Shown: one piece after another, positions 3,701 to 39,866 of the stretch
Layout of the letters: each line of letters begins with the position of its first letter
Numbering within the stretch: position 1 is the first letter of the stretch
Notes under the pieces: model-generated
Database searches by the model: none
The model's input: the letters and a program-made list of their open reading frames with translations, nothing else
Told to the model about the DNA's origin: nothing
Made by a program: the position numbers and the translations under genes
Origin: a virus
IMG/VR virus record: IMGVR_UViG_3300045303_000036
Span: 1-42,018 of that record
Direction: 5' to 3' (one strand)
DNA length: 42,018 bases

Positions 3701-3938
3701 ACGTGCCAACAGTGGTGCCTATAGTGGCGTTCTCCGCCACCGTATTGCTACTTAATGCGATGAACGTGCCGGATGACGCCACGAACGTCACGGCCTTGCC
3801 GAAATTGGCCACCTTGGTGACGGCGAGGCCCTGGCCCGGCAGAGCCTCGCTGACGGGAAAGCCGAACTGCGGCATCGTTGCCGTTACGTCAACGACAGCG
3901 AGGCCGCCAGACGCGACGGTATTGACAGGCCGGGCCAT
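771..3938 (-). CDS. Large cadherin-repeat tail fibre/adhesin, 1055 aa
   Basis: Residues 1-53 are the module shared with the gene at 1-165. Residues about 59-149 and 155-247 are two cadherin-like repeats, with VAENATIG, LDYETA and VTDIDD in the first and DFETPDD in the second. The remaining 800 residues are Gly/Thr/Ser-rich beta structure typical of a receptor-binding or tail spike protein. I recognise no catalytic motif. At residues about 658-734 an ISGTALTIT...SGTGI...GGTGTYV module sits inside another small repeat (see findings). A GAGGT ribosome site precedes ATG 3938. The stop is 13 bases before the next gene. Its size, cadherin repeats (often involved in calcium-dependent adhesion) and place in the virion block suggest host-surface recognition (inference). 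Confidence 0.8.
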   Translation of the reverse strand: MARPVNTVASGGLAVVDVTATMPQFGFPVSEALPGQGLAVTKVANFGKAVTFVASSGTFIALSSNTVAENATIGTTVGTLSVVNPGTGTPVYTLTDSAGGKFSITGALLKTAAALDYETATSHLVTVHVTGLTPPVTDQVILVVVTDIDDTAPVITSGSTVSNVENTPLAFTLTANETVTWSIVGGADQARFELSGSTLRWASNGTKDFETPDDADTNNAYIVQVRATDLASLTTNQTITVTVTDVFEAGTTTVITQDGLDATFAGLRTTGQYVDGSWWIVAPPGGVVLNSVAIHAGVTTDVYLGGVMVEPAGLATQGFDNRYGSGIGPGLIYDGALAKTLPLTVDHYADGTSSPKTIWLYRGLDTVQSGGANSGCAYIVQITVVASSPASNTIKPTGFLVAGGKPTTTQADINYSAITPLAIPSGAVEPDWSYQTLFIRPTIQSGEFNTGHQINLVSPTYSQESYPAYQSGNAALVLLGAISTSTSRTMLIDRIVRQGLDWYAQSLYNKPCCIAGAGFGQGLAPVVFMAGVFLNNSAMKTTPAPVAIYTGQTVPYYQEHGAVFIGTATGPYPYGQPIYGVISSAAYPAGPFGDNHDQRDVTGAREPHWLTHSSGTARAGAASWIQLASGAPSTSGYENYVLYLASGPGAGDARRIVGGFITLGSISGTALTITFIDTNPISRPNPIRLGMTISGTGITAGTYIVSQSSGTTGGTGTYVISPSHGTVSPPSILFAGYDQTTKRAAMYTDFTTPPTSSTTYEFYNGGEYQTLATQYNVGCAVAIVAAGLSAQWQAFDTSGAWLFYIKRWIDMQGELNPRKPEAYDQSQYYIDIRSFNDIGGVWAKKFYLSYAQSIWPAQTSETITPGSLPIVGQTITPVFSTAGGPTTVFQTTLTGATIPGLSGTTMRQVTGAANLSAATGQQIRITIGFPLLGAGATIICYVGQGSTGGDQYDTTAMVQLTGGDFGSGTYTQAVTNPATLVSDWCTLNEAYDEAKDLVIAFYGAVAGVSIFTGVTNAIDHVWYVGGNTASVANATGYTDGDAFNSVFVAKIEIKT
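3780..3938 (-). repeat. Second copy of the N-terminal virion module (partner at about 7-165)
   Basis: The first 53 codons of the cadherin fibre gene and the 5' end of the gene at 1-165 are a diverged direct repeat on the minus strand. They keep the same frame and similarity ends near the TFV codons in both. Shared runs include PVNTVA and AVTKVANFG. The two copies lie about 3.8 kb apart in the same operon. Confidence 0.8.
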
Positions 3939-7298: not shown

Positions 7299-7872
7299 CG
7301 GGCTTCTCCGTCTTGAACATCAATGTGATCCGCATCCCCGTGTAGCTCCGCGTCACGCCGTTGGCGCGGTGCGGCATGCGGCCGTCGAACACGATAATGC
7401 TGTTGGGCCGGGGGAAAGAGCAGGCGGCGATCCGGTCCTCTCGCTGGTTGTAGAACAGCGTCTCGCCGCCCCAGTTTGGGCTCCACCGCTCGTGGGGGTA
7501 GTACACGGCGGTGTAGTTGCCCGGCTCACTTGCGTCGGAGTGAACCGTGCCGTCCATGCCGTAGGCCATGCCGTTGGCGTAGCACCGCACCAGCGTATGG
7601 CCGGCAAATACTTTGTCCCTGACGTGCGACCAAGCCTCGAAAATGAGCGGAGCATTCGTCAGCAGCTCGACCTCGCAGTCGTAGGCCTTGTCGACGCCGG
7701 TCTTGCGGTGACCGGCGTAGTGCTTGTGCAGGAACGAATAGCCGTCGCGCTTTGAGTTGGACTTCCAACCGGTCTCCCAGCCGCGCTCCGTGAGAAAGTC
7801 GTACAGCTTGCCGCGCATCTCCTCGGGGAATGCGTTCTCGTGCCGCACCGGTTTCTCGAACACCAGCGTCAT
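7285..7872 (-). CDS. 2-oxoglutarate/Fe(II)-dependent dioxygenase, prolyl-4-hydroxylase-like, 195 aa
   Basis: The double-stranded beta-helix signature is visible. His111 and Asp113 (VHSDAS) and His168 (MPHRANG) form the Fe(II) facial triad, and Arg181 (TGMRITLMF) fits the 2-oxoglutarate carboxylate-binding position. WGGETLFYN and IIVFDGRMPHR match prolyl 4-hydroxylase-type cores. Enzymes of this family hydroxylate a protein or nucleic-acid substrate using O2 and 2-oxoglutarate; the substrate here is unknown. The start overlaps the portal stop (ATGA), so it is translationally coupled to the portal. Length is normal for a single-domain member. All expected metal ligands are present, so it should be active. 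Confidence 0.85.
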   Translation of the reverse strand: MTLVFEKPVRHENAFPEEMRGKLYDFLTERGWETGWKSNSKRDGYSFLHKHYAGHRKTGVDKAYDCEVELLTNAPLIFEAWSHVRDKVFAGHTLVRCYANGMAYGMDGTVHSDASEPGNYTAVYYPHERWSPNWGGETLFYNQREDRIAACSFPRPNSIIVFDGRMPHRANGVTRSYTGMRITLMFKTEKPDAIA

Positions 7873-10247
7873 TGGTTAGCCGTGGGATAAGGCTTCATTG
7901 CCGCCTGCTTCTCCTTGAACAATTGCCCGCGCTCGGCCATCTGCCGCTTCGACGCCATGTCGGCCGATCGGTTCTGCGCGTCCACCTGCTTCTGTTCCGC
8001 CATCTGCGTGTGCAACTGCATCTTCTGCTGGCCCTCGACCAGCTTCTGCTCGTGCTGCTGCGCATCGAACTGCGCCTTTACCTGAAGGTGGCCCATCTTG
8101 GCCTCCTCGAGCCGGCGCTTGCTCTCGGCCTCGAACATCGCGACGCGCTGCTCGCCCTGCAGTTTTGCAGCCTCCTGCGCGCCCTGCTGCTGCAGCTTCG
8201 TCATTTCCAACTGCGCCTTGCCGTCGGCCTCGGCCTTCTGCGCCTCGAGCTTCTTCATCTCGATCTGCGCCGTGGTGTCGAGCTTCTTCTGCTCGGCCTC
8301 CAGCTTCGGGTCGGGCTTGCCGATCCGCTGGCTCGCCATCATCTCGACCTGCTCGACCAGGTTGTCGATCGAGCCGTCCAGCGTGCGGCCAACCCGGAAC
8401 GGCGCCACCGAGAACTTCAGCAACTCGCCGCAGAACTCGGCAGAACCCGGCTGCGCCGCGATCAACGCACCCAACTGCGGCAGCAACTGCGCCATCATGC
8501 CCATGAACTCGCCGCGGCGCTGCTTCTCGGCGTTCTCGTCGGCCTGGATGGTCGAGTCGGTCTCGATGTCGAGCACGAACGCCGTGGTGCGGTAGTCGCG
8601 CAGAAACTCCTCGATCAGCTCCTGCGTCGGCTTGTTCTGCTCGTCCTCGATGTTGCCCTTGAGCTGCGTGTACTGCTGCTGCAGCTCCTGCATCTGCTGC
8701 GGGTTGCCCTGCACCGCCATGGCCTGCGCCTGGGGTGCGGCTTGCGCCTGCTGCATCTGCTGCATGGCCTGCTGCTGGATCATCTGCAACTGCTGCGCCA
8801 TGGCAAACATCTTCTGCTGCTGCTCGGCCTGCGTCGGGATCTCCATCTGCGACATCTGCAACAGCGTGCCGAAGTCGAAGTCGCTGCACATGATCTCGGC
8901 AATGATCTCCTCGAGGTCTCGCGCGACGCGCACCATCTCGCCCTGCTTGTCGCGGATGCGCACTGAGCCAAACTGCGACTTCAACTGCTGCGCGCCCAGC
9001 GTCTCGGACGGATCGGTCGAGCCGCGCATGATGTCGCTCAGACCCATGATCTGGTAGATGTCTTCGATGATCTGCTTGCGCACCGCTATCACCGCCGTGA
9101 TCGTGTTGGCGATCATGTCGATCGGCATCCAGATGATGACTTCCTTGCTGCCGCCGAACGCCGCCCAATTGCTGATCGGCACGAGCACGCGCCCGGGCGA
9201 CTTCATCTTCACCGCAGCCTGCACGGCGTCGCTGATCTCGGCTGAGCCCGCCGGATAGAAGCCCTTCACCTCGAGGTACTGCGCAAGCGCGTGCAGCCGC
9301 CCCGTCAAGGTGTGCACCTCGTCGAGCTGGTCCTTGTATTGCAGTACGTCAGGAACGGGGATCAGGCTGCCCGGCTGCGTGGCGCTGTACGCCGGCATGG
9401 GGCACGGGAAGAAGTTGTTGAGCTTGGCAAGCTCGCTCGGCTCGGCGCTGTCGAGCACGTCCTCGCAGCCCTCGGCAACCCAGACAACCTTGTTCAAGCC
9501 GCGATGCCAGATCTCCCAGAACTGCGCCCGCTCGCGGTTGTCGCTGCCGCCTATTTCCTGAAGGTCCTTGTCAACCTTGTACTCGGCCTTGGTGTACTCG
9601 TCGTCGCTGTACTTGCTGAACCGCGCCTTGGCCTGCGCCCGCGTCATGTAGCTCGCGGCCGCAACCCACGTCACCTCACGCCAGTTGCGCGACAGGCTGT
9701 GCAAAAAGTCCTTGCGGCCCTTGTGATCGACGCAGACGTATTCCGACTTGTCGCGGTCCTTGTCGGCCGGCTCGTACCGGCACCACGCTACGCCGCGGCC
9801 GGTGGTGGCCAGATCGTCGCGCACCAGCTTGAGCAGATCGTCAATGCGCGTCAGATCGAACGCCACCACGGAACACCGCTCCAGCAACTCGCTGGTGGTT
9901 TGGTAAAGCGGCCGCCTGTCCTTGAACTTCGGCACCACCACCGGCACCGGCGGCTTGGCGTAGATGCTGGGCTTGAGGATCTCTAAATTGGCCCAGAACA
10001 GGTTGAACTGGCGATCGCGTTCTAACGAACGCAGGAAGCTAAGGTTGGCATACATCCGCTCGATGTTGTCGCAACTCTCGTTCCACTCCTGGAAAGCCTT
10101 CTCGGACTCGTCCAGCATGTTGAGCCAGGCTTTCGCCTTCTCGGGCTCCATGGCCGGGTTGTATTCGCTATCAGCCGCGCGCTCGTCTTCGCCTGTCGGG
10201 GCCAGTTCTTCCTCAGCCGGCTCCAGGCTTCTGTCCTCGTCCGCCAT
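7869..10247 (-). CDS. Portal protein, 792 aa
   Basis: This is the head-vertex ring through which DNA is packaged and ejected. Length, place two genes after the terminase, and sequence pieces fit podovirus-type portals: FWANLEILKPSIYAKPPVP near residue 85, LVRDDLATTGRGVAWCRYE, and an LPDVLQYKD-like segment. The C-terminal 300 residues are unusual: a Gln/Met/Ala-rich stretch (about 460-540) and a long Lys/Glu/Ala/Gln-rich coiled coil (about 650-780). This could form the barrel/crown that projects into the head. The start is 6 bases after the preceding stop, and the stop overlaps the oxygenase start (ATGA). Confidence 0.85.
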   Translation of the reverse strand: MADEDRSLEPAEEELAPTGEDERAADSEYNPAMEPEKAKAWLNMLDESEKAFQEWNESCDNIERMYANLSFLRSLERDRQFNLFWANLEILKPSIYAKPPVPVVVPKFKDRRPLYQTTSELLERCSVVAFDLTRIDDLLKLVRDDLATTGRGVAWCRYEPADKDRDKSEYVCVDHKGRKDFLHSLSRNWREVTWVAAASYMTRAQAKARFSKYSDDEYTKAEYKVDKDLQEIGGSDNRERAQFWEIWHRGLNKVVWVAEGCEDVLDSAEPSELAKLNNFFPCPMPAYSATQPGSLIPVPDVLQYKDQLDEVHTLTGRLHALAQYLEVKGFYPAGSAEISDAVQAAVKMKSPGRVLVPISNWAAFGGSKEVIIWMPIDMIANTITAVIAVRKQIIEDIYQIMGLSDIMRGSTDPSETLGAQQLKSQFGSVRIRDKQGEMVRVARDLEEIIAEIMCSDFDFGTLLQMSQMEIPTQAEQQQKMFAMAQQLQMIQQQAMQQMQQAQAAPQAQAMAVQGNPQQMQELQQQYTQLKGNIEDEQNKPTQELIEEFLRDYRTTAFVLDIETDSTIQADENAEKQRRGEFMGMMAQLLPQLGALIAAQPGSAEFCGELLKFSVAPFRVGRTLDGSIDNLVEQVEMMASQRIGKPDPKLEAEQKKLDTTAQIEMKKLEAQKAEADGKAQLEMTKLQQQGAQEAAKLQGEQRVAMFEAESKRRLEEAKMGHLQVKAQFDAQQHEQKLVEGQQKMQLHTQMAEQKQVDAQNRSADMASKRQMAERGQLFKEKQAAMKPYPTANQ

Positions 10248-10500: not shown

Positions 10501-10974
10501 TCAGAAATTAGAGAACGCCCCATGATACTCTTTGTGCGCCTTAACGTAAGCCGCACGCGCTTCCTCCGCTGAGGGAAACGAACCAAGATATTTCTTAACC
10601 CCATTGATGCCGATCTCGGCCTGAAAATACTTGCCGCGCAGAACGCGAACGCCATTGGGAAGCCCGTCCCGGTTTGCGTTGTTGTGCGACCGTGTCGCCT
10701 CGCGCAAATTAACAAGCCTGTTGTCGCCCTTGTCCCGGTTGATGTGATCAACCTCTTTGGGCCAATGCCCGTGTTGCATCGCCCAAGCAATGCGATGCGC
10801 CCCGATCAGTCGATCATCAACACGCACCTTAATGTAACCGCATGGGTCACGTCCGCCTGCGACCATCCCAGCCTTCAGCCGGTTTCCATATCGCCCACGA
10901 TCAACGCGCCAACGCAGGACGCCAGTATCCGGCTCGTAAACCAGCAATTCATGCAGCCTCTCGATGGAGATCAC
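10501..10974 (-). CDS. HNH homing endonuclease with AP2 DNA-binding domain, 157 aa
   Basis: The N-terminal part has the phage HNH_3 pattern: YEPDTGVLRW, then GAHRIAWAMQHG, then VDHINRDKGDNRLVNLREAT with catalytic His77 and Asn residues near 85 and 98-99. Residues about 105-150 (GVRVLRGKYFQAEIG...LGSFPSAEEARAAY) are an AP2/ERF-type DNA-binding domain. I chose the GTG at 10974 because it overlaps the terminase stop as GTGA and has GAGAGGA upstream. An ATG further upstream would add 17 residues of antisense-like sequence within terL. Free-standing HNH genes spread by cutting intact copies of their site, and insertion between terminase and portal is a typical home. It appears intact. Confidence 0.85.
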   Translation of the reverse strand: MISIERLHELLVYEPDTGVLRWRVDRGRYGNRLKAGMVAGGRDPCGYIKVRVDDRLIGAHRIAWAMQHGHWPKEVDHINRDKGDNRLVNLREATRSHNNANRDGLPNGVRVLRGKYFQAEIGINGVKKYLGSFPSAEEARAAYVKAHKEYHGAFSNF

Positions 10975-12344
10975 AGTCGCAGTCCTCTCATGTCTCGCTC
11001 GTCTGTCGGCGGTGGAATTACCCAAGCCCCAGGCTCGATCTTCGTCTCAATTGGCTGCCTTGGAATGTTACGCCATGCTAGGGACAAATACCTAAATGCG
11101 TCTGCGGGATGACTCGTCCAGTCATGTACCGCTGTCGCCTGAAAGGACTTTGTCTCGTCTTTCCATTCTCTTCTATATTGTTCTAACGCGCTAATACCTT
11201 GTTCCTCACACCTAGGGTGAAACACGCACAACGGCAGCGTGCGCCGCACCGCGTTGATCCCGTCAGCAATAGAAGCCATAGGCACCAGGAATGGCTTAAG
11301 CCCAAGAGCCTGCATCGTCTCAACACGCGTCCTACCCGAGCCCCACTCCTTGATCTTAGCGTCGTGCGGTACGAAGTCCGTGCCGTGCTTCCATCCATGC
11401 AGCAGCTCCCGCTTCTTGATCTCCTCGGCGTAGTGCTCGACGCCGGCCCCGCTCGAGGAGTAGCAGTCGAGCACGAAGAGCTGCGCGCCGACAACCTGAA
11501 ACCACCATATGCTGGTGTCGTCCGTCACGCCGAGATCCCATGCGCGGTGCACATACTGATCCGGCAGCGCCTCGATCGCGTCGACGCGGCCCTCGGCGCG
11601 CACGTTGGCCATTTCGAGCGAGTAGAACGCGCCCAGGATCGCCGCCTGGAAGTCGCAGAAATATTCCTGCCTGTATTGAGCTCGGCCTACGTCCTCACCG
11701 TACAGCGCCGTATACTCGGCGAGCGCCTCGGCGAGAGCGTCGTCACTTAGCGCCTCCGTGTCACTCGCCGTCTTCAATTCAGCAAACCAGTCCTTCGACT
11801 GCGAGGCGTGCTGGAACAGAGTGAATGCGTGGTTGCGGCCACGCGGCGTGGTGATGAATGCGGCCCAGCCGTTGTTCTCCTCGAGCATCGGGCGGTGATA
11901 CGCCCACGCACTCGGGTTCGCCAGCGCCCACTCGCTGTAGACGATGCCGGCGGCGCCGCTGCCGACTGTGGTGTCGTACCTGTCGCTGCCAATGCACTGC
12001 CAGGTCGAGCCGTTCTTGAAACGAATGAACATCTCGCTGTCGTTGGTATTAGCGCGCAGTGCCAGTGGGAACGCTTCATCGATGCGGCGCTTGCCGGTGT
12101 GCGGGTTGATCGCTGTCCAGATCGCTTTTCGGCTCTGTGCATACTCTGGAGTGCAATGCCAGTAATTACCCACACGATCCACGTTCGCCGATAACGCAGT
12201 ATGATGTAGACAAACATCGTCCTTGCCAGCGCGACGATGCCAGACCGCCATCGCACGTTTGCCTCCGTTGCGCAGATATTTCCACAGTTCGATCTGGTGC
12301 GGCCGCGGCGTCCACTCGTTGTTGGGCAGACGCACACGGATCAT
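10971..12344 (-). CDS. terL: Terminase large subunit, 457 aa
   Basis: ATP-driven DNA packaging motor and headful nuclease. Walker A-like HRRAGKDD is at 36-43, Walker B IVYSE at about 134-138 and the coupling motif TTPRGR at 165-170. The RNase H-like nuclease half has acidic residues Asp270 (AWDLGVTDDTS), Asp293 (VLDCYS) and Asp415 (SHPADAFRY). Length is normal. The start overlaps the previous gene as ATGA and the stop overlaps the homing endonuclease start as GTGA. The packaging mode (cos or pac) cannot be decided from the sequence. Confidence 0.93.
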   Translation of the reverse strand: MIRVRLPNNEWTPRPHQIELWKYLRNGGKRAMAVWHRRAGKDDVCLHHTALSANVDRVGNYWHCTPEYAQSRKAIWTAINPHTGKRRIDEAFPLALRANTNDSEMFIRFKNGSTWQCIGSDRYDTTVGSGAAGIVYSEWALANPSAWAYHRPMLEENNGWAAFITTPRGRNHAFTLFQHASQSKDWFAELKTASDTEALSDDALAEALAEYTALYGEDVGRAQYRQEYFCDFQAAILGAFYSLEMANVRAEGRVDAIEALPDQYVHRAWDLGVTDDTSIWWFQVVGAQLFVLDCYSSSGAGVEHYAEEIKKRELLHGWKHGTDFVPHDAKIKEWGSGRTRVETMQALGLKPFLVPMASIADGINAVRRTLPLCVFHPRCEEQGISALEQYRREWKDETKSFQATAVHDWTSHPADAFRYLSLAWRNIPRQPIETKIEPGAWVIPPPTDERDMRGLRL

Positions 12345-17674: not shown

Positions 17675-17847
17675 TGCTCACCGTTCGGTTTTATTTCATC
17701 GGCTATTACGGCTGCGGGACATGGCCGCTCAACGTGACCATTGAAAGCACCGACGCCTTCAACGCCGTTCTGCAAGCTCACGCCAAGGGATGGCACAACC
17801 TCAAATTGATGGCGCATGACGGCACCGACATAGAGGAGGCCGCCTAA
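17674..17847 (+). CDS. Small protein, 57 aa
   Basis: Coupled on both sides (TGATG at its start, TAATG at its end). The sequence (LTVRFYFIGYYGCGTWPLNV, AFNAVLQAHAKGWHNLKLM) suggests a small alpha/beta fold. Not recognised. Directly upstream of the exonuclease, so perhaps a recombination accessory protein. Confidence 0.5.
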   Translation: MLTVRFYFIGYYGCGTWPLNVTIESTDAFNAVLQAHAKGWHNLKLMAHDGTDIEEAA

Positions 17848-18650
17848 TGCTCAGCCCCAGCCTACAGCCCGCCACTCTCAGCCCCGAGCGAGACACCCGT
17901 GTCGGCGCCTCGTTCCTGCCCGCCCTGATGGCCGGCAAGACCGACGAGATCATGCGCGAATGGCAACGCCTGACTGGCGATCCGGCCTACGTGCCGGTGA
18001 ATTTCGAGGACAATTGGCCCGTAAACTTGGGCAAGTACCTAGAACCGCTGGCAATTGACTGGCACCAGCGCAAGACCGGCCCGCTGACGCGCCGCGGCGA
18101 GTGGGTGCGCCACCCGCACCGCGACTGGCTCGGCTGTACCCTCGACGCATGGCGCGCCACCACCAACACGGTCATCGACGCCAAGTGTGTCGGCCAGTGG
18201 CGCAAGCTCGACGAGGTGATCTCCTACTACACGCCGCAACTCGTTGTGCAGAAGGACTGCACCGGGGCGGCCAATGCTTCGCTGCTGATCGTCCATGGCG
18301 GCGCCGAGCCGGTCGAATATCCCGTAACATGGACGGTCGGCTACGAATGTGACGTGTGGTTGAGACTTGATGCGTTCTGGGACTGCGTCATGTCGTTGAC
18401 GCCGCCGTGCGAGTTGCCATCGGCGCTCGCGCCCGTGCCGGCCGTGCAGACTTACGACATGGGCACGTCGAATGCCTTCGTGGCCAACGCCGCCACCTGG
18501 CTCCTGAACAAGACCGCCGCGAAAGACTTTGACGGGGCGGCGCGCGAGTTGAAAGCACTCGTCCCCGCCGACGCTATCCGCTGCCACGGTGGCGGCGTGG
18601 AAATTTCCAGAAACCGCGCTGGTTCTCTCTCGATAAAGGAAAGAACGTAA
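17847..18650 (+). CDS. YqaJ-like recombination exonuclease, 267 aa
   Basis: PD-(D/E)XK exonuclease of the phage YqaJ/lambda-Exo type, which resects double-strand ends 5'-3' to give ssDNA for annealing. Candidate active-site residues are Glu66 (KYLEPLAIDW), Asp100 (GCTLDAW) and Asp111-x-Lys113 (VIDAKCVGQW), followed by the YYTPQLVVQ helix that carries the usual Gln/Tyr motif. The motif reads D-x-K in place of E-x-K, an accepted variant. Coupled to the preceding gene (TAATG) and followed within the operon by an ERF annealing protein, the usual exonuclease/annealase pair. Confidence 0.8.
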   Translation: MLSPSLQPATLSPERDTRVGASFLPALMAGKTDEIMREWQRLTGDPAYVPVNFEDNWPVNLGKYLEPLAIDWHQRKTGPLTRRGEWVRHPHRDWLGCTLDAWRATTNTVIDAKCVGQWRKLDEVISYYTPQLVVQKDCTGAANASLLIVHGGAEPVEYPVTWTVGYECDVWLRLDAFWDCVMSLTPPCELPSALAPVPAVQTYDMGTSNAFVANAATWLLNKTAAKDFDGAARELKALVPADAIRCHGGGVEISRNRAGSLSIKERT

Positions 18651-18760
18651 CAGCGCACATGCTGCACGCTATTTACTACACAACAGAGGGTATCAGGGTG
18701 GCGGCTGCATTGACGCCAGCCAAGCCGGCTCCCTCACAATTTGCGAGAAGGAATAACAAC

Positions 18761-19495
18761 ATGCAGACCGAGAACCTCAACGAAATTGCCGCCGCACTTG
18801 CCAAAGCGCAGGGCACAATGGAGGCCGCAAAGTTCAACAAGATCGTGAACTTCAGCGGCCGTTCGTACAAATACGCCGATCTTGCCGCCATCATCGACGC
18901 GATCCGCAAGCCGCTCTCCGACAACGGCATTGGCTGGACCCAAACCATCGAGATCCGCGATGGCGGCTTGATCCTGGCCACCATGCTGCTGCACACGTCC
19001 GGTCAGGCGCTGCGGTCCGAATATCCGTTGCCGTCCTCCGGCAAGCCGCAGGAAATGGGCAGCGCGACGACCTACGCCAAAAGGTACTCGCTCGCTGCAA
19101 TAGTCGGCATTGCCGCCGACGACGACGACGACGCGGATGCCGCGGAAAAGGGCGGGCTCACAGTTGCCGCGCCGAAAAAGAAATATACCGACAACTACGA
19201 CGCCAACACCAAGGCCGATCTCGATCGCGCCCCGGTCAACCGGGTCGAGCCGCCCGTGCATCCGGTAACCGGCGAAACCGGCCCGCACGCCATTGTCGAA
19301 CCCGACGATATGAAATGGGGTGCGAAGTTTGTCGCCGCGATCAAGGCGGCCAAAACCGATGACGAGATCAAGCAGTGGATGGATGTCAACTGCACACGGC
19401 TTGATAACGTCGCGATCGACGCCCCGAAAATACATGACAGGATCGTCACCAACATCGAGGTCGCCAGCGAGGCGCTGAAGAGGAACGCTGCGTGA
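18761..19495 (+). CDS. erf: ERF-family single-strand annealing protein, 244 aa
   Basis: ERF signatures are clear: YKYADLAAIIDAIRKPLSDN (37-56), a strand pair with TMLLHTSGQALRSEYPLP, and GSATTYAKRYSLAAIVGIAA (100-119) followed by an acidic DDDDDAD run. It binds ssDNA and anneals complementary strands. The C-terminal half is a linker plus a small helical domain (WGAKFVAAIKAAKTDDEIKQ). Start 18761 has GAAGGA upstream; a longer in-frame start at 18659 lacks support. About 110 noncoding bases precede it, so it may have an additional promoter. The stop overlaps NinB's GTG. Confidence 0.88.
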   Translation: MQTENLNEIAAALAKAQGTMEAAKFNKIVNFSGRSYKYADLAAIIDAIRKPLSDNGIGWTQTIEIRDGGLILATMLLHTSGQALRSEYPLPSSGKPQEMGSATTYAKRYSLAAIVGIAADDDDDADAAEKGGLTVAAPKKKYTDNYDANTKADLDRAPVNRVEPPVHPVTGETGPHAIVEPDDMKWGAKFVAAIKAAKTDDEIKQWMDVNCTRLDNVAIDAPKIHDRIVTNIEVASEALKRNAA

Positions 19496-20410: not shown

Positions 20411-20559
20411 GACCGAACCCGGATAAAGATAAGGCCACCCGGCACCTCTATTATCTAAAGAACAAAGCGGCGTTCAAGCTGCGCGACAGGAAATGGCGCG
20501 CAGCTAAGAAGAAGAATGTCCCCTGGCACAGGGACAACAAACCGAGTGCATCCCCATGA
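20407..20559 (+). CDS. Very basic small protein, 50 aa
   Basis: GTG 20407 overlaps the HNH stop (GTGA) and its stop overlaps the excisionase start (ATGA). Lys/Arg-rich (RPNPDKDKATRHLYYLKNK, then KLRDRKWRAAKKK), so it probably contacts nucleic acid. Both its neighbours and the overlap pattern support it as a real gene despite its size. Confidence 0.5.
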   Translation: MRPNPDKDKATRHLYYLKNKAAFKLRDRKWRAAKKKNVPWHRDNKPSASP

Positions 20560-20801
20560 AGACACCGCCCCCCTATCAGGACATAGCAACCTTGACGGCC
20601 AACCTGTCGATCTCGCCGCGCACCGTCGATGTCTGGGTAAAGCGGGGACTGCTGCCGCCGCCGGTGACGCGGGGCACCAAACGGCTTTGGAAATGGTCGC
20701 AAGTGGAGCAATATCTTGATGGCGGCGCCGACAGCGGGACAACGGCGGAACTGCAGGACATACGCAATGAAACGCGGCGACAGGCGAGCGGCGCCCGGTA
20801 A
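20556..20801 (+). CDS. Excisionase-like winged helix protein, 81 aa
   Basis: An AlpA/MerR-like DNA-binding segment (LSISPRTVDVWVKRGLLPPP, then TKRLWKWSQVEQYL) typical of phage Xis and Cox proteins. It lies directly before the integrase and overlaps it by 35 bases, the usual pairing. It would steer recombination towards excision by bending attachment-site DNA. Confidence 0.75.
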   Translation: MKTPPPYQDIATLTANLSISPRTVDVWVKRGLLPPPVTRGTKRLWKWSQVEQYLDGGADSGTTAELQDIRNETRRQASGAR

Positions 20802-21702
20802 CTTTGCCGGCGTCGTGGCGGCCTACCTGGGCGGCGACAAGTTCATGCGGTTGGCGGCCTCGACGCAGGGCGGCTATCGCCGCCACTTGGCGCTGGCGCA
20901 GAGCGTGCTCGGCAACTACACGGTCGATGTGATCCGCCCGGCTCTTGTGCAGGCCTTCCTCGACGGTCTGGCCGATCGGCCGGCCACCCAGAAGCACGCG
21001 CAGACCGCGCTGAAGGCGCTCGAGCGCTGGGCCATCGTGCGGGACCTGCTGCCGCGCCAGATCACGCTCGGCACCGACGCGCCGGGAGCCGACGGTGGGC
21101 ACAAGCCCTGGACCGAAGAACAGATCGCCACCGGCATTGCCCACGCCGCCCCGCATCTGTCGCGGGTGATAACGCTCGCCGCCAACACCGGGCAGCGCGG
21201 CTCCGACCTCGTGCGGATGCGTTGGTCCGACATCGAAATGTATGACGGCAGGCTCGGCCTGAACGTCACCACCAAGAAGGTTGGCCTGCAGCTGTGGATC
21301 CCGTTGACGGCCGAGCTCTGCGAGGCGCTCACCTCATGGCAGCGGCGGCCGGGGTTTATCCTGTTGAAGCCCAACGGCCAGCCCTTCAGCCGCACGCAAC
21401 TGTCGGACGCATGGACCAAGGAACGCGACACCAACCCGCAGCTCACTTTGCTGGCCGGCTGCACGCTGCACGGCTTGCGCTCGACGGCCATTGTCAGGCT
21501 GCGCCGGGCCGGCGTCACCACCGGGCTTATTTCGAGCCTGGTGGGGCTGTCTGAGGCTATGGTGAACCGCTACTGCCGGTTCGCGGTGCAGAAGGACAAC
21601 GCCATCGCCGCGGTGATCCAGCTCGACGGAACGGCCAGAGAACTAGGACTACGTTCAGCAGGTAAGTCGTTGATATCGCTTAAGCCGACATTCTCGAAAT
21701 AA
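20767..21702 (+). CDS. int: Tyrosine integrase, 311 aa
   Basis: Site-specific recombinase of the lambda Int type. The N-terminal part is a SAM-like core-binding domain (TQGGYRRHLALAQSVLG, VQAFLDGLADRPATQKHAQT). The catalytic domain has Arg144 (NTGQRGSDLVRMRW), a Lys near 170-171, His235-x2-Arg238 (LHGLRSTAIVRL) and nucleophile Tyr269 (MVNRYCRF). The second His usual before the Tyr is replaced by Leu261 (VGLSEAM). Start 20767 has only 17 residues downstream of an alternative at 20716 inside the excisionase gene. About 170 noncoding bases follow, a likely place for attP. Confidence 0.92.
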   Translation: MKRGDRRAAPGNFAGVVAAYLGGDKFMRLAASTQGGYRRHLALAQSVLGNYTVDVIRPALVQAFLDGLADRPATQKHAQTALKALERWAIVRDLLPRQITLGTDAPGADGGHKPWTEEQIATGIAHAAPHLSRVITLAANTGQRGSDLVRMRWSDIEMYDGRLGLNVTTKKVGLQLWIPLTAELCEALTSWQRRPGFILLKPNGQPFSRTQLSDAWTKERDTNPQLTLLAGCTLHGLRSTAIVRLRRAGVTTGLISSLVGLSEAMVNRYCRFAVQKDNAIAAVIQLDGTARELGLRSAGKSLISLKPTFSK

Positions 21703-21872: not shown

Positions 21873-22607
21873 ATGAGCCGACTACTCGGCGCCGCGCTCG
21901 CGGCGTCACTTGCTACGTTTGCATTGGCACTGCCGGCGCAGGCGGATGCGATCAATAACCTCTCTATCATCGCGCTTCCTGCGGGAAACATAGTCCCGCA
22001 GAGCCAGTCAAACCCCTGCATCATTTGCGGCACGGAGGCCGCTCACCAACCGGGGACCTTCGGGTACAATAATTTCAGCAACCACGGGAACGATACCTCT
22101 TTCGCGACCTTCTCGACCAACATCATTGGTGGCGGGCCGCTCCTCGGCGACCTCCAGAGTAACGCCCTCACCTATTCCGGCTCCCTCCTTGAAAGCCTGC
22201 TTAGCGCCGGCTTCACCTTTGGCGTGGCGATCGACATCAACACCGCAAAGGGCGAGGAAACCCTTCAGTCGTTCCAGTTGATCGATCTTTCCAAGAATGC
22301 CGGCGAGCGTGTCATCTTTGACTTCACCGGACCATATGCCTTGCCCGACATCAACAACGGCAACGGCAAGGGTGACTATCTGCTCACCGGCTTCAACCTG
22401 TTGGCGGCTGGCGTCCAACCTGGTGACGCTCTTCTGTTCCGCGCCGTCTGGACCGGAGCCTCGGACGGTGCCGAGAGCTTCTACATCGTCCCGACCGGTC
22501 TCGCTGCGGTGCCGGTCCCCGGCGCCGTCTGGCTGTTTGGTTCCGGCATTGCCGGGCTTGGCATGCTGAAGCTGCGCCGCAGGAAGGCTCGAGCGGCAAC
22601 GGCGTAA
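21873..22607 (+). CDS. Secreted protein with PEP-CTERM/VPxPx-type C-terminal sorting signal, 244 aa
   Basis: Residues 1-24 are a Sec signal peptide (MSRLLGAALAASLATFALAL, cleavage after PAQA). The mature part is Asn/Gly/Thr-rich beta structure with a Cys pair (NPCIICGTE). The last 32 residues form a tripartite tail: VPVPGAVWLF, a hydrophobic helix (SGIAGLGML) and an Arg/Lys cluster (KLRRRKAR). This is the layout of PEP-CTERM/VPLPA-CTERM sorting signals, processed by a host exosortase and linked to exopolysaccharide-producing Gram-negatives. It has an AGAGGA ribosome site and its own hairpin after the stop. Beside integrase, it looks like a lysogenic-conversion cargo gene. Confidence 0.75.
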   Translation: MSRLLGAALAASLATFALALPAQADAINNLSIIALPAGNIVPQSQSNPCIICGTEAAHQPGTFGYNNFSNHGNDTSFATFSTNIIGGGPLLGDLQSNALTYSGSLLESLLSAGFTFGVAIDINTAKGEETLQSFQLIDLSKNAGERVIFDFTGPYALPDINNGNGKGDYLLTGFNLLAAGVQPGDALLFRAVWTGASDGAESFYIVPTGLAAVPVPGAVWLFGSGIAGLGMLKLRRRKARAATA

Positions 22608-22618
22608 CACTCACACAC

Positions 22619-22655
22619 GAACGCCGCCTGACTCGGGGAGAGGGCGGCGGCGTTC
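22619..22655 (+). terminator. Hairpin terminator after the secreted-protein gene
   Basis: Perfect 10-base stem GAACGCCGCC / GGCGGCGTTC (22619-22628 with 22646-22655), 17-base loop, followed by ATTCAAC with no long T run. Very stable but imperfect as an intrinsic terminator. It ends the cargo gene unit. A rare GANTC site (22630-22634) lies in the loop. Confidence 0.6.
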
Positions 22656-24679: not shown

Positions 24680-26011
24680 TTAGAAATTAACCGCAGTCCA
24701 ATGGTTGCCGTTGGGGCTGCTGTCTATGCCAAGGTTTGCAGCAGATAGCTGGTTGTTGAAGGCAAGCCTGAAGCCATGCGGGCCATATGACCCTGCGTAA
24801 GCTTTCGGCGTCCATACGCCAGCTACATCCACACCGAAACTCGTTGCCGGTACTTCTGACCCATCAACGAAAATTATCTCTTTCATCCACACGTCGGGGT
24901 AATGTGCGGCCTGCCCCAGGTAGTGTGCTATTGGCGAGTTCAGGCCCGGATCGGTGCCAAGCATGGTGAATGGCGGGGGCAACAGGCCGTTATTGACACT
25001 GAGGTTCCAGGTTTTCGTTGCTGGAGTTGCCCCGGCAGTCGGACAGGACCAGATAATGTTGAGCCACAGCCCTACATTCGTGAATGTCATTGTAGACATT
25101 CCAAGTTCTGTCGTTCCGCCCGTTCCACTAAACCATCCAATTTGGTTAAGGGAATTAAACCCGACATGCATTTCGTTGCCAGCTATCTTGACGCCAAACA
25201 ATGCCTGATGCGTTGCCAGACTGTTGCGCCTGACCCACATGGATATCGTCCATGGCAAGCTGCTTGTGCCGACAAAAGTCCTGGTCATGTACTGGCTGCT
25301 GGCGCGCAAAAACCGCAGCTCGGATGTCTGTAATGTGCCTGCGCTAAGAACAGCGGCAATAGCCGTATCGACATATTGCTTAGTGGCCGGGTGCAACGCG
25401 GCGGATGGATCGGCGTTAAGAGTTAGATAGCCGGTCATCACGCCATCGGCGCCACCGGCTTTTCCAACTTTCTTGGTGTCTAGTTCTTGAATTGCCTCGG
25501 CAATGGTGTCGGACGTTATGCCTCCGCTAGGAGGAAACGGCAGCGTTGCTGCACCGACTACTGTCCACGCGCCCCACACATTGGTTTTTTTCTCGCGCAC
25601 ATAGACAGTGCCTGGAACCGTTGTGTCGTTCGTGTCTCGCGCCGAGACCGTGACGTTGGCGTTCGTCGGCGGCGATGCCAGCGCCTCATTGATGTAGGCG
25701 ATGCCGGCAAACGCATGGCCGTCTACCGGCCCGCCAGTGGCTGAACCGGCGGAGCGGAACGAGCCCGGAAACCAAACATGCGTGTCGTAATTGGTGACGA
25801 GCTGCGCGGCTTTCTCGGCGCCAAGGGTGACCAGCGCCGCATCGGCAGTCGTTGCGCCAGTGCCGCCACGGTGGATCGGCCGCGGAGTATTGAGATCGTT
25901 GCCGACCAGATCGTCGAGGAAATTGTTGTAGGCCGCGCTCTCGATCGTCTCGTCGGGGACGCCGCGCGTTCCCAGCGGATATTGGTAGTTGCCTGAACCG
26001 TCCTGGGGCAT
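24680..26011 (-). CDS. Tail fibre with LamG-like receptor-binding domain, 443 aa
   Basis: PIHRGGTGATTADAAL (about 45-60) and MTGYLTLNADPSAALHPATK are typical tail-fibre repeats for trimeric shafts. From about residue 225 the sequence turns into a concanavalin-like/LamG domain (RASSQYMTRTF, WTISMWVRRNSLATHQALFG, NQIGWF, YPDVWMKEIIFVDG), a jelly-roll that often binds carbohydrate. Starts three bases after the previous gene's stop. Probably a receptor-binding protein distinct from the collagen-like and cadherin fibres. Confidence 0.75.
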   Translation of the reverse strand: MPQDGSGNYQYPLGTRGVPDETIESAAYNNFLDDLVGNDLNTPRPIHRGGTGATTADAALVTLGAEKAAQLVTNYDTHVWFPGSFRSAGSATGGPVDGHAFAGIAYINEALASPPTNANVTVSARDTNDTTVPGTVYVREKKTNVWGAWTVVGAATLPFPPSGGITSDTIAEAIQELDTKKVGKAGGADGVMTGYLTLNADPSAALHPATKQYVDTAIAAVLSAGTLQTSELRFLRASSQYMTRTFVGTSSLPWTISMWVRRNSLATHQALFGVKIAGNEMHVGFNSLNQIGWFSGTGGTTELGMSTMTFTNVGLWLNIIWSCPTAGATPATKTWNLSVNNGLLPPPFTMLGTDPGLNSPIAHYLGQAAHYPDVWMKEIIFVDGSEVPATSFGVDVAGVWTPKAYAGSYGPHGFRLAFNNQLSAANLGIDSSPNGNHWTAVNF

Positions 26012-38846: not shown

Positions 38847-39866
38847 TCAGCTACCCGGAGTCGGGTCGTACATTTTCCAATTAAACTTTGGGTTGGTCAT
38901 GCAAAGTTCGCCCATCCAGCCAATAAATTGGGCGATGGCGTCCTTGTCGATGGGCATCATTCCCTCACCCTTGAAGATGCTGTCGAAGTTACGGCTCGGG
39001 TGATAACGCAGCCGCAGGCTGTCGGTATGCAGGCCGTAGGTGGTGTCGGCCGGCATGTCCGAACCGATGCCGCCTTCCAGCACGATGGTGCTGCGCTTGC
39101 CGCCGCCGATGTACTCAAGCGTCGAGAAGCCCAGTTTGCCCAGCGAACCGCTGGTCTGGCGCTGGATGGCGATCGTTGCCGCGTCGTAGGCCTCGTAGTG
39201 CTCCTTCGACATCAACAGCAGATCGGCGTAGTCCTTGCCCCTCGACTGTGCCGTCATGATGCGGTTGAGCAGCGGACGAACGGTGGTCGAGGTGACTTGC
39301 GTCACGCCGGCCATGTACGACTGCACATTGAAGTACTGCGTCTGCCACCAGGCGTTCTGCGCCCGGTCGATGCCGCCATAGACGCCAGTGGTATTTGCAG
39401 TCGGGATCGCCGTCTGCAGGCCGGTGAGCTGCTTGCCGCCGCCGGCAGCGTGCAAGGCTGCGTCCATGGCGTCCTCGAGCGCGCGCTCGGCCGCGGCCAT
39501 GTAGCTCGAGAGCACGGCCATGACCTGGGCCTGGCCCTCGTTGTTGAGGATCTCCTGCTTGCTCAGGATGATGGGCACCGCCACCATCTTGGGCTCGAAC
39601 CAAGCATCGGCGAACAGATCGATCGCTGGGTTCAACAGCACATCATAGCCGTTGTACCATTGCGCGGTTTGCTTGGCGATCTGCAGCGTCTGGCGAATGC
39701 GCGGGCCGCTGTAGGTTTCCCACAGCCCCTTGTCACGCATCACCGCCAGAAGTGCGTTGTTGTCGGAGACGAGATCCTGGTAGGACGAGGAACGATCCTC
39801 GATCGCCATCGACAGGATCTGCTGGTAGGGAATATTACTTTCAGTTCCGACTGGAAGGATAGGCAT
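38847..39866 (-). CDS. Major capsid protein, 339 aa
   Basis: Follows the scaffold gene in the usual order and has the look of an HK97-fold shell protein: N-terminal helices (YQQILSMAIEDRSSSYQDLV), a central segment with EILNNEGQAQVMAVLSSYMA, and a C-terminal beta region (SDMPADTTYGLHTDSLRLRY, DAIAQFIGWMGELCMTNPKF). No signal peptide and no decoration insert. AGAGGA lies upstream of ATG 39866. Position, size and neighbours make the call secure; the exact coat family is not decided. Confidence 0.85.
   Translation of the reverse strand: MPILPVGTESNIPYQQILSMAIEDRSSSYQDLVSDNNALLAVMRDKGLWETYSGPRIRQTLQIAKQTAQWYNGYDVLLNPAIDLFADAWFEPKMVAVPIILSKQEILNNEGQAQVMAVLSSYMAAAERALEDAMDAALHAAGGGKQLTGLQTAIPTANTTGVYGGIDRAQNAWWQTQYFNVQSYMAGVTQVTSTTVRPLLNRIMTAQSRGKDYADLLLMSKEHYEAYDAATIAIQRQTSGSLGKLGFSTLEYIGGGKRSTIVLEGGIGSDMPADTTYGLHTDSLRLRYHPSRNFDSIFKGEGMMPIDKDAIAQFIGWMGELCMTNPKFNWKMYDPTPGS

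Follow-up and report, generated by a model that had tools for sequence, protein, structure and literature searches.

A phage gene family for PEP-CTERM-type secreted proteins with exchanged bodies and sorting tails

The window is a single viral record in IMG/VR (42,018 bases, analysed at its full length). It belongs to a soil-type phage and carries near its middle a gene for a secreted protein of PEP-CTERM type (Table 1), whose C-terminal tag is of the kind by which bacteria attach proteins to their sticky outer coat. Recombination genes, a helix-turn-helix (HTH) gene and a tyrosine integrase gene lie to its left, and tail-fibre genes to its right. By its content of an integrase gene and an HTH/excisionase-like gene, the window phage itself is temperate. 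A prophage-boundary artefact, in which the gene would be chromosomal and the window would cross the end of a prophage, is ruled out by the phage genes on both flanks. The window also contains diverged direct repeats, one pair between the contig ends (222-312 and 41602-41692, 86%) and another within the left arm (8-165 and 3781-3938, 78%); these are similar coding segments and do not form an exact terminal repeat.

The encoded protein begins with MSRLLGAALAASLATFALALPAQA, in which a signal peptide is visible by eye, as it is in the aligned family members, and ends with VPVPGAVWLFGSGIAGLGMLKLRRRK. The gene has its own ribosome site (AGAGGAA). In the preliminary description, the locus was read as a phage-borne gene with a signal peptide and a tripartite tail, separated from the integrase gene by a noncoding gap and followed by a hairpin. 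This reading is borne out: the gene stands between phage genes, and the contig also holds portal, terminase and major head genes; the open reading frame is real and contains VPVP, a hydrophobic helix and RRRK, with the TIGR02595 model narrowly passed; the gap measures 170 nt; and the hairpin was found directly downstream. No PHROG family matched the window protein, and its reading as a phage structural protein was rejected on that ground.

Table 1. Features of the window and related genes in other viral records (positions of the window unless another record is named).
Feature	Position	Strand	Evidence or remark
Portal protein, marks the contig as phage	7869..10247	-	phrog_12082, 4.4e-169
Terminase large subunit	10971..12344	-	phrog_2, 1.1e-24
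RecE-like exonuclease and Erf-like annealing protein genes	17847..19495	+	phrog_434, 1.4e-19; phrog_2324, 1.7e-36
Small MerR/excisionase-like HTH protein	20556..20801	+	PF13411, 23.0 bits (cut-off 21.6)
Tyrosine integrase	20716..21702	+	PF00589, E 2.5e-13; phrog_1, 1.8e-35
Shine-Dalgarno-like AGAGGAA	21858..21864	+	read from the sequence; 8 nt upstream of the ORF
Phage PEP-CTERM-type secreted protein, 244 aa	21873..22607	+	ATG start; 53 viral relatives
Signal peptide (aa 1-25), probably cleaved near AQA/DA	21873..21947	+	by eye
Body, aa 26-207, predicted beta-sandwich-like domain	21948..22493	+	AlphaFold2 mean pLDDT 69.9; dN/dS against L002 0.11
CxxC (C49, C52)	22017..22028	+	both Cys invariant in 39/39 aligned members
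C-terminal sorting signal, aa 213-238: VPVP, hydrophobic helix, RRRK	22509..22586	+	TIGR02595, 16.4 bits; P214 and P216 invariant in 39/39
10-bp hairpin after the stop codon, terminator-like without a T-run	22619..22655	+	-25.3 kcal/mol
Tail-fibre-like protein, right flank of the window gene	24680..26011	-	phrog_24210, 5.6e-11
Major head protein	38847..39866	-	phrog_9953, 8.2e-76
Second, unrelated PEP-CTERM genes	L004:6097-6783, L027:9240-9986, L028:9288-9986, L034:9273-9992		4-nt overlap with the family gene
Tunturi_5 gp97 and gp179 (L108, L107), PEP-CTERM-type	PP885688.1 75107-75703, 125878-126516		both annotated as hypothetical protein

Taken alone, the window protein is borderline, since TIGR02595 (PEP_CTERM) is passed by only 0.4 bits (cut-off 16, E 0.012), while Pfam PF07589 (16.2, cut-off 20.7) and VPLPA-CTERM (TIGR03370; 15.9, curated cut-off 25.35) are missed. 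A search with PEP-CTERM and VPLPA-CTERM profiles, proposed beforehand as a check, has thus upheld the former narrowly and not the latter. PF07589 is to be regarded as the stricter model and not as the defining feature, because it recovers only 22% of the TIGR02595 matches according to Haft et al. 2006 (PMC1569441). The model of the flocculation protein PepA (NF033554) shows a weak likeness at residues 64-236 (E 2.6e-5), and with 24.1 bits against a cut-off of 80 the protein is not a member. A strict tail pattern, namely P-x-P, a hydrophobic stretch and a basic cluster at the C-terminus, matches one of the 269 window ORFs, which is the gene under study, and none of 11,868 ORFs from codon-shuffled windows. 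At E ≤ 0.1, the NCBIfam tallies among 39 family members are 21 for VPLPA-CTERM, 18 for PepA and 8 for TIGR02595, plus other PEP-CTERM families; of 30 family records, 7 exceed the curated PF07589 cut-off, at 11 places, the window not being among these. The window protein is therefore marginal as a PEP-CTERM protein, but the family is not.

An IMG/VR scan that used the window protein alone found 25 loci, and one that used an 18-member alignment found 53. The preliminary description had known of few or none of these genes in phages. A search of the open-access literature (including PMC12642866 and PMC4886054) likewise found no report of phage-encoded PEP-CTERM proteins, but for environmental phages the statement does not hold. 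Short conserved patterns were scanned for twice in 84,980 bacterial and archaeal genomes, a method that distant relatives could escape, and no relative was returned; nor was any found at E ≤ 10 in 50,697 phage records, and plasmids gave only a weak tail-side match (residues 131-231) to a Desulfosarcina PEP-CTERM protein. Only 15 of the 53 loci have any further protein in common with the window, and the family is a sizeable, recombining gene group spread over many different phages.

The alignment used for comparison (A2) holds 39 of 54 sequences, including that of the window; those left out were 11 sequences judged identical to a listed member (decided by script among the first 25 loci and by eye in the case of L041, L046, L048 and L051), the fragments L025, L052 and L053, and L030. 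The last of these (L030:10001-10774) has an in-frame TGA at codon 14, within the signal peptide, and is otherwise intact. Invariant throughout the 39 members are P214, P216, the two cysteines of CxxC, D168, Y169, D198 and G199, and R236 is conserved in at least 90% of them. Purifying selection acts on the body (dN/dS 0.01-0.19 in 14 pairs), and the tail usually, but not always, evolves more freely (0.04-0.47 in the 13 computable pairs).

Four tail classes were distinguished among the 39 members: [VT]PxP[GS]AxW (n = 10, including the window), PEP (n = 7), VPxPxA (n = 16) and VPxP..GAGxPG (n = 6). L033 and L054, members of class D (GAGLPG), match no NCBIfam model at E 0.1, so that this class may be no exosortase signal at all. 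Over 741 pairs, body and tail identities are weakly correlated (Spearman 0.22), and individual pairs reveal exchange of either part. L043 and L045 are 95% identical in the body and 47% in the tail; L021 and L047 are 86% identical in the signal peptide, 53% in the body and 95% in the tail; for L005 and L039 the corresponding values are 91%, 54% and 86%. DNA identity along the gene follows the same steps. On the body tree the tail classes require 8 changes, against a lowest possible number of 3 and, with shuffled labels, an average of 20, which indicates that tails are mostly inherited, yet have been repeatedly exchanged.

Four loci (L004, L027, L028 and L034) carry a second PEP-CTERM gene overlapping the family gene, with TIGR02595 scores of 23.2, 27.6, 25.3 and 20.5 bits, respectively (cut-off 16). 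Genes of the L028 type were found in 46 viral loci and those of the L027 type in 4, each count including its own query locus, and this second family had no match among phage and plasmid records. Across 49 records (48 from the second-gene scans plus that of Tunturi_5, described below), PF07589 matches at E ≤ 0.01 in 41 and above cut-off in 33, compared with 0 of 14 control genomes. The strict P-x-P tail is present in 32 of the 50 L027/L028-type proteins, and variants, for example TEPA or GEPA, occur in most of the others. In the second family, L083, L084 and L086 end at AVPGR without a sorting tail, representing either a secreted form or decay; together with the in-frame stop of L030, they indicate that some members can do without the signal. 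In this region L027 and L028 otherwise resemble each other, and their second genes have 72-74% DNA identity in the signal-peptide stretch, about 22-60% in the body and 80-100% from the tail onward, which marks an exchange of the body at one locus. Signal-peptide and tail stretches are likewise common to L030 of the first family and L067 of the L028 type, around unrelated bodies.

A cultured example was reached with a short PEP-type tail query, which pointed to Tunturiibacter phage Tunturi_5 at E about 1, too weak a match on its own. The record of this phage has two PF07589 places above cut-off, corresponding to gp179 and gp97, and gp179 also passes TIGR02595 with 19.2 bits. Like the family, both proteins have a signal-peptide-like start and a tail of TPEP type; unlike the family, their bodies are seemingly unrelated, as judged by eye, and they belong to a cultured jumbo phage of an acidobacterium with a named host. 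A term search of the main text of the Tunturi_5 paper (PMC11924767) found neither PEP-CTERM nor exosortase mentioned.

The position of the gene varies among the phages. In 9 of the 53 loci, several of them near-duplicates, the large terminase gene ends 18 nt before its start and major head and portal genes follow at a distance; in L027 and L028 it lies downstream of a DNA-methyltransferase/primase-like gene. The hairpin of the window has a z of -4.0 against dinucleotide shuffles and of only -1.4 against mononucleotide shuffles of an 80-nt stretch, and the scan for T-run terminators on the plus strand after the window gene returned none. Directly after the stop codon, a stem-loop with z ≤ -3 (mononucleotide shuffles) is present in 29 of 53 loci against 5 of 51 upstream stretches, a difference that near-duplicates inflate. 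Such stem-loops would suit an accessory gene that brings its own end signal. Two consecutive G+C-rich stem-loops without a T-run directly follow the gene in ten loci of the VPxPxA class (L005:6942-7025, L009:10667-10750, L047:8748-8828 and seven others); both stems are conserved, and in 4 of 23 pairs the two partners have both changed. A terminator, an mRNA stabiliser and a recombination site are candidate roles for them.

The AlphaFold2 model computed from 39 sequences predicts a C-terminal helix in addition to the body; an earlier model from 18 sequences was too poor for use. Fold matches are weak and generic, comprising carbohydrate-binding modules, lectins, viral coat proteins and toxin domains (best VIA Z 7.4, 8pxu_B). 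Foldseek gave no match at E ≤ 0.001 in PDB and BFVD, and profile searches found no relative of solved structure. Since the fold matches are within noise, glycan binding is a guess. Exosortase (PF09721) was not found in any of three sets of viral records (0/20, 0/34 and 0/49, or 0/103 altogether), and a host enzyme is therefore presumed. As for the host, the portal protein of the window is nearest to those of Rhizobium phage RHph_I3_18 (45%) and Bradyrhizobium phage ppBjS10J-1 (35%), a kinship that may be taken as only a hint of an alphaproteobacterial host. The tails of the window and L033 matched nothing in plasmids at E ≤ 1, while the L034 tail, which is of PEP type, found matches in 23 plasmid records, the best being Roseomonas PEP-CTERM proteins; such a short-query test can thus work, yet it names no host. 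The large terminase of L020 gave no host hint either, none of 1,539 phage records exceeding 60% identity. A literature search on exosortase or PEP-CTERM in Bradyrhizobium or Acidobacteria brought up no direct support for a host exosortase.

The sequences show the layout, the phage location, purifying selection on the body, a spread over many phage backgrounds and gene positions that is typical of a moron, and repeated exchange of bodies and tails. On these grounds, it is considered fairly probable that the gene is an accessory gene ("moron") of tailed phages, whose product would serve as a substrate of the host exosortase and remodel the surface of the infected cell. The protein would be exported by its Sec signal peptide, and its layout suggests that the C-terminal helix would hold it in the inner membrane with RRRK on the cytoplasmic side. 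A host exosortase would then recognise the proline motif and take over the protein, so that the body with its invariant CxxC may come to lie at the cell surface or within the exopolysaccharide, altering either during infection or lysogeny. The benefit would most plausibly lie in protection against adsorption by competing phages or in favouring aggregation, which is a guess. A further-reaching proposal is more tentative and somewhat doubtful: phages may run an interchangeable surface-protein cassette, in which a constant signal peptide and an exosortase tail matched to the host surround a body swapped by recombination, giving type-specific exclusion of rivals or a changed exopolysaccharide coat.

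Export could also end at the inner membrane, with an ordinary signal peptide and the C-terminal helix as the anchor, no exosortase step, and a periplasmic role such as blocking DNA entry or timing lysis. The marginal model scores of the window, the two class D members that match no sorting model, the failure to find exosortase in the phage records and the invariant CxxC, which suits an oxidising periplasm, all speak for such a protein. However, a plain anchor would require neither prolines nor recurring recognised motif classes, whereas both prolines are invariant in 39 of 39 members and several members and neighbouring genes score above curated PEP-CTERM cut-offs; this explanation is accordingly held to be unlikely. 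Far less credible still, and close to negligible, is a host PEP-CTERM gene on contigs miscalled as viral. Environmental bacteria are typical carriers of PEP-CTERM genes, as stated by Haft et al. (PMC1569441), and many family contigs are fragments; but the window gene sits between phage genes in a contig with portal, terminase and head genes, genes of these three kinds adjoin the family gene in other loci, the two pattern scans of bacterial and archaeal genomes found no relative, and the complete genome of the cultured phage Tunturi_5 carries such genes.

The preliminary description had further proposed lysogenic-conversion cargo beside an integrase. In its narrow form, with expression only from prophages and a change to the envelope or biofilm of lysogens, this role is judged quite improbable. 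The integrase gene just upstream of the window gene, the hairpin behind it and the similar arrangement in L026 and L033 would agree with it, but the arrangement is not general. PF00589 was detected in 7 of 49 family records, a lower bound because a search of the same looseness missed even the window's own terminase and the search was confined to tyrosine integrases, and only in the window, L026 and L033 does it lie within about 1.1 kb of the gene. The loci in which the gene follows the large terminase gene weigh against it as well, and members inside head-gene operons are a misfit with a purely lysogenic role.

The favoured reading, that of an exosortase substrate encoded by phages, can be compared with several known systems. 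Haft et al. (PMC1569441) defined the PEP-CTERM layout, with signal peptides in 97% of the proteins once these had been re-analysed; neither "phage" nor "virus" occurs as a word in the main text of that paper. Compared with the PEP-CTERM/exosortase (EpsH) system as described there, the family is alike in its signal peptide, in having a proline motif, a transmembrane helix and a basic cluster at the very C-terminal end, in a body without known homologues, and in composition (Ser 8.0%, Thr 7.0%, Asn 8.6%), while Cys amounts to 1.1% here and to 0.4% in the PEP-CTERM proteins reported. The family differs in being encoded by phages and not found in the bacterial chromosomes scanned, in having no exosortase found in its viral records, and in a motif that varies (VPVP, PEP, VPIP, VPGP) within one protein family. 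The VPLPA-CTERM motif resembles the window-type and VPIPxA-type tails, although the window itself falls below the model's cut-off. Phage morons and superinfection-exclusion membrane proteins are similar in being small accessory genes with their own ribosome site, a downstream hairpin and varied places across phages. None of them is known to carry an exosortase-type sorting signal. The sorting signal as such is known, but no account of phages using it repeatedly, in swapped cassettes, could be found in the open-access literature.

The family adds a class of phage accessory genes, the window protein being without a PHROG family. Tunturi_5 and Tunturiibacter constitute a cultured phage-host pair, which makes the idea testable now. 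If the cassette proposal were true, each phage would put another protein on the infected cell with the help of a borrowed host exosortase. Exosortase/PEP-CTERM systems are common among environmental Gram-negatives, and what they serve for is still little understood. Should phages acquire exosortase substrates again and again, exchanging and tuning them, the displayed proteins would matter in the conflict between phage and host, which would offer a new handle on the purpose of this system.
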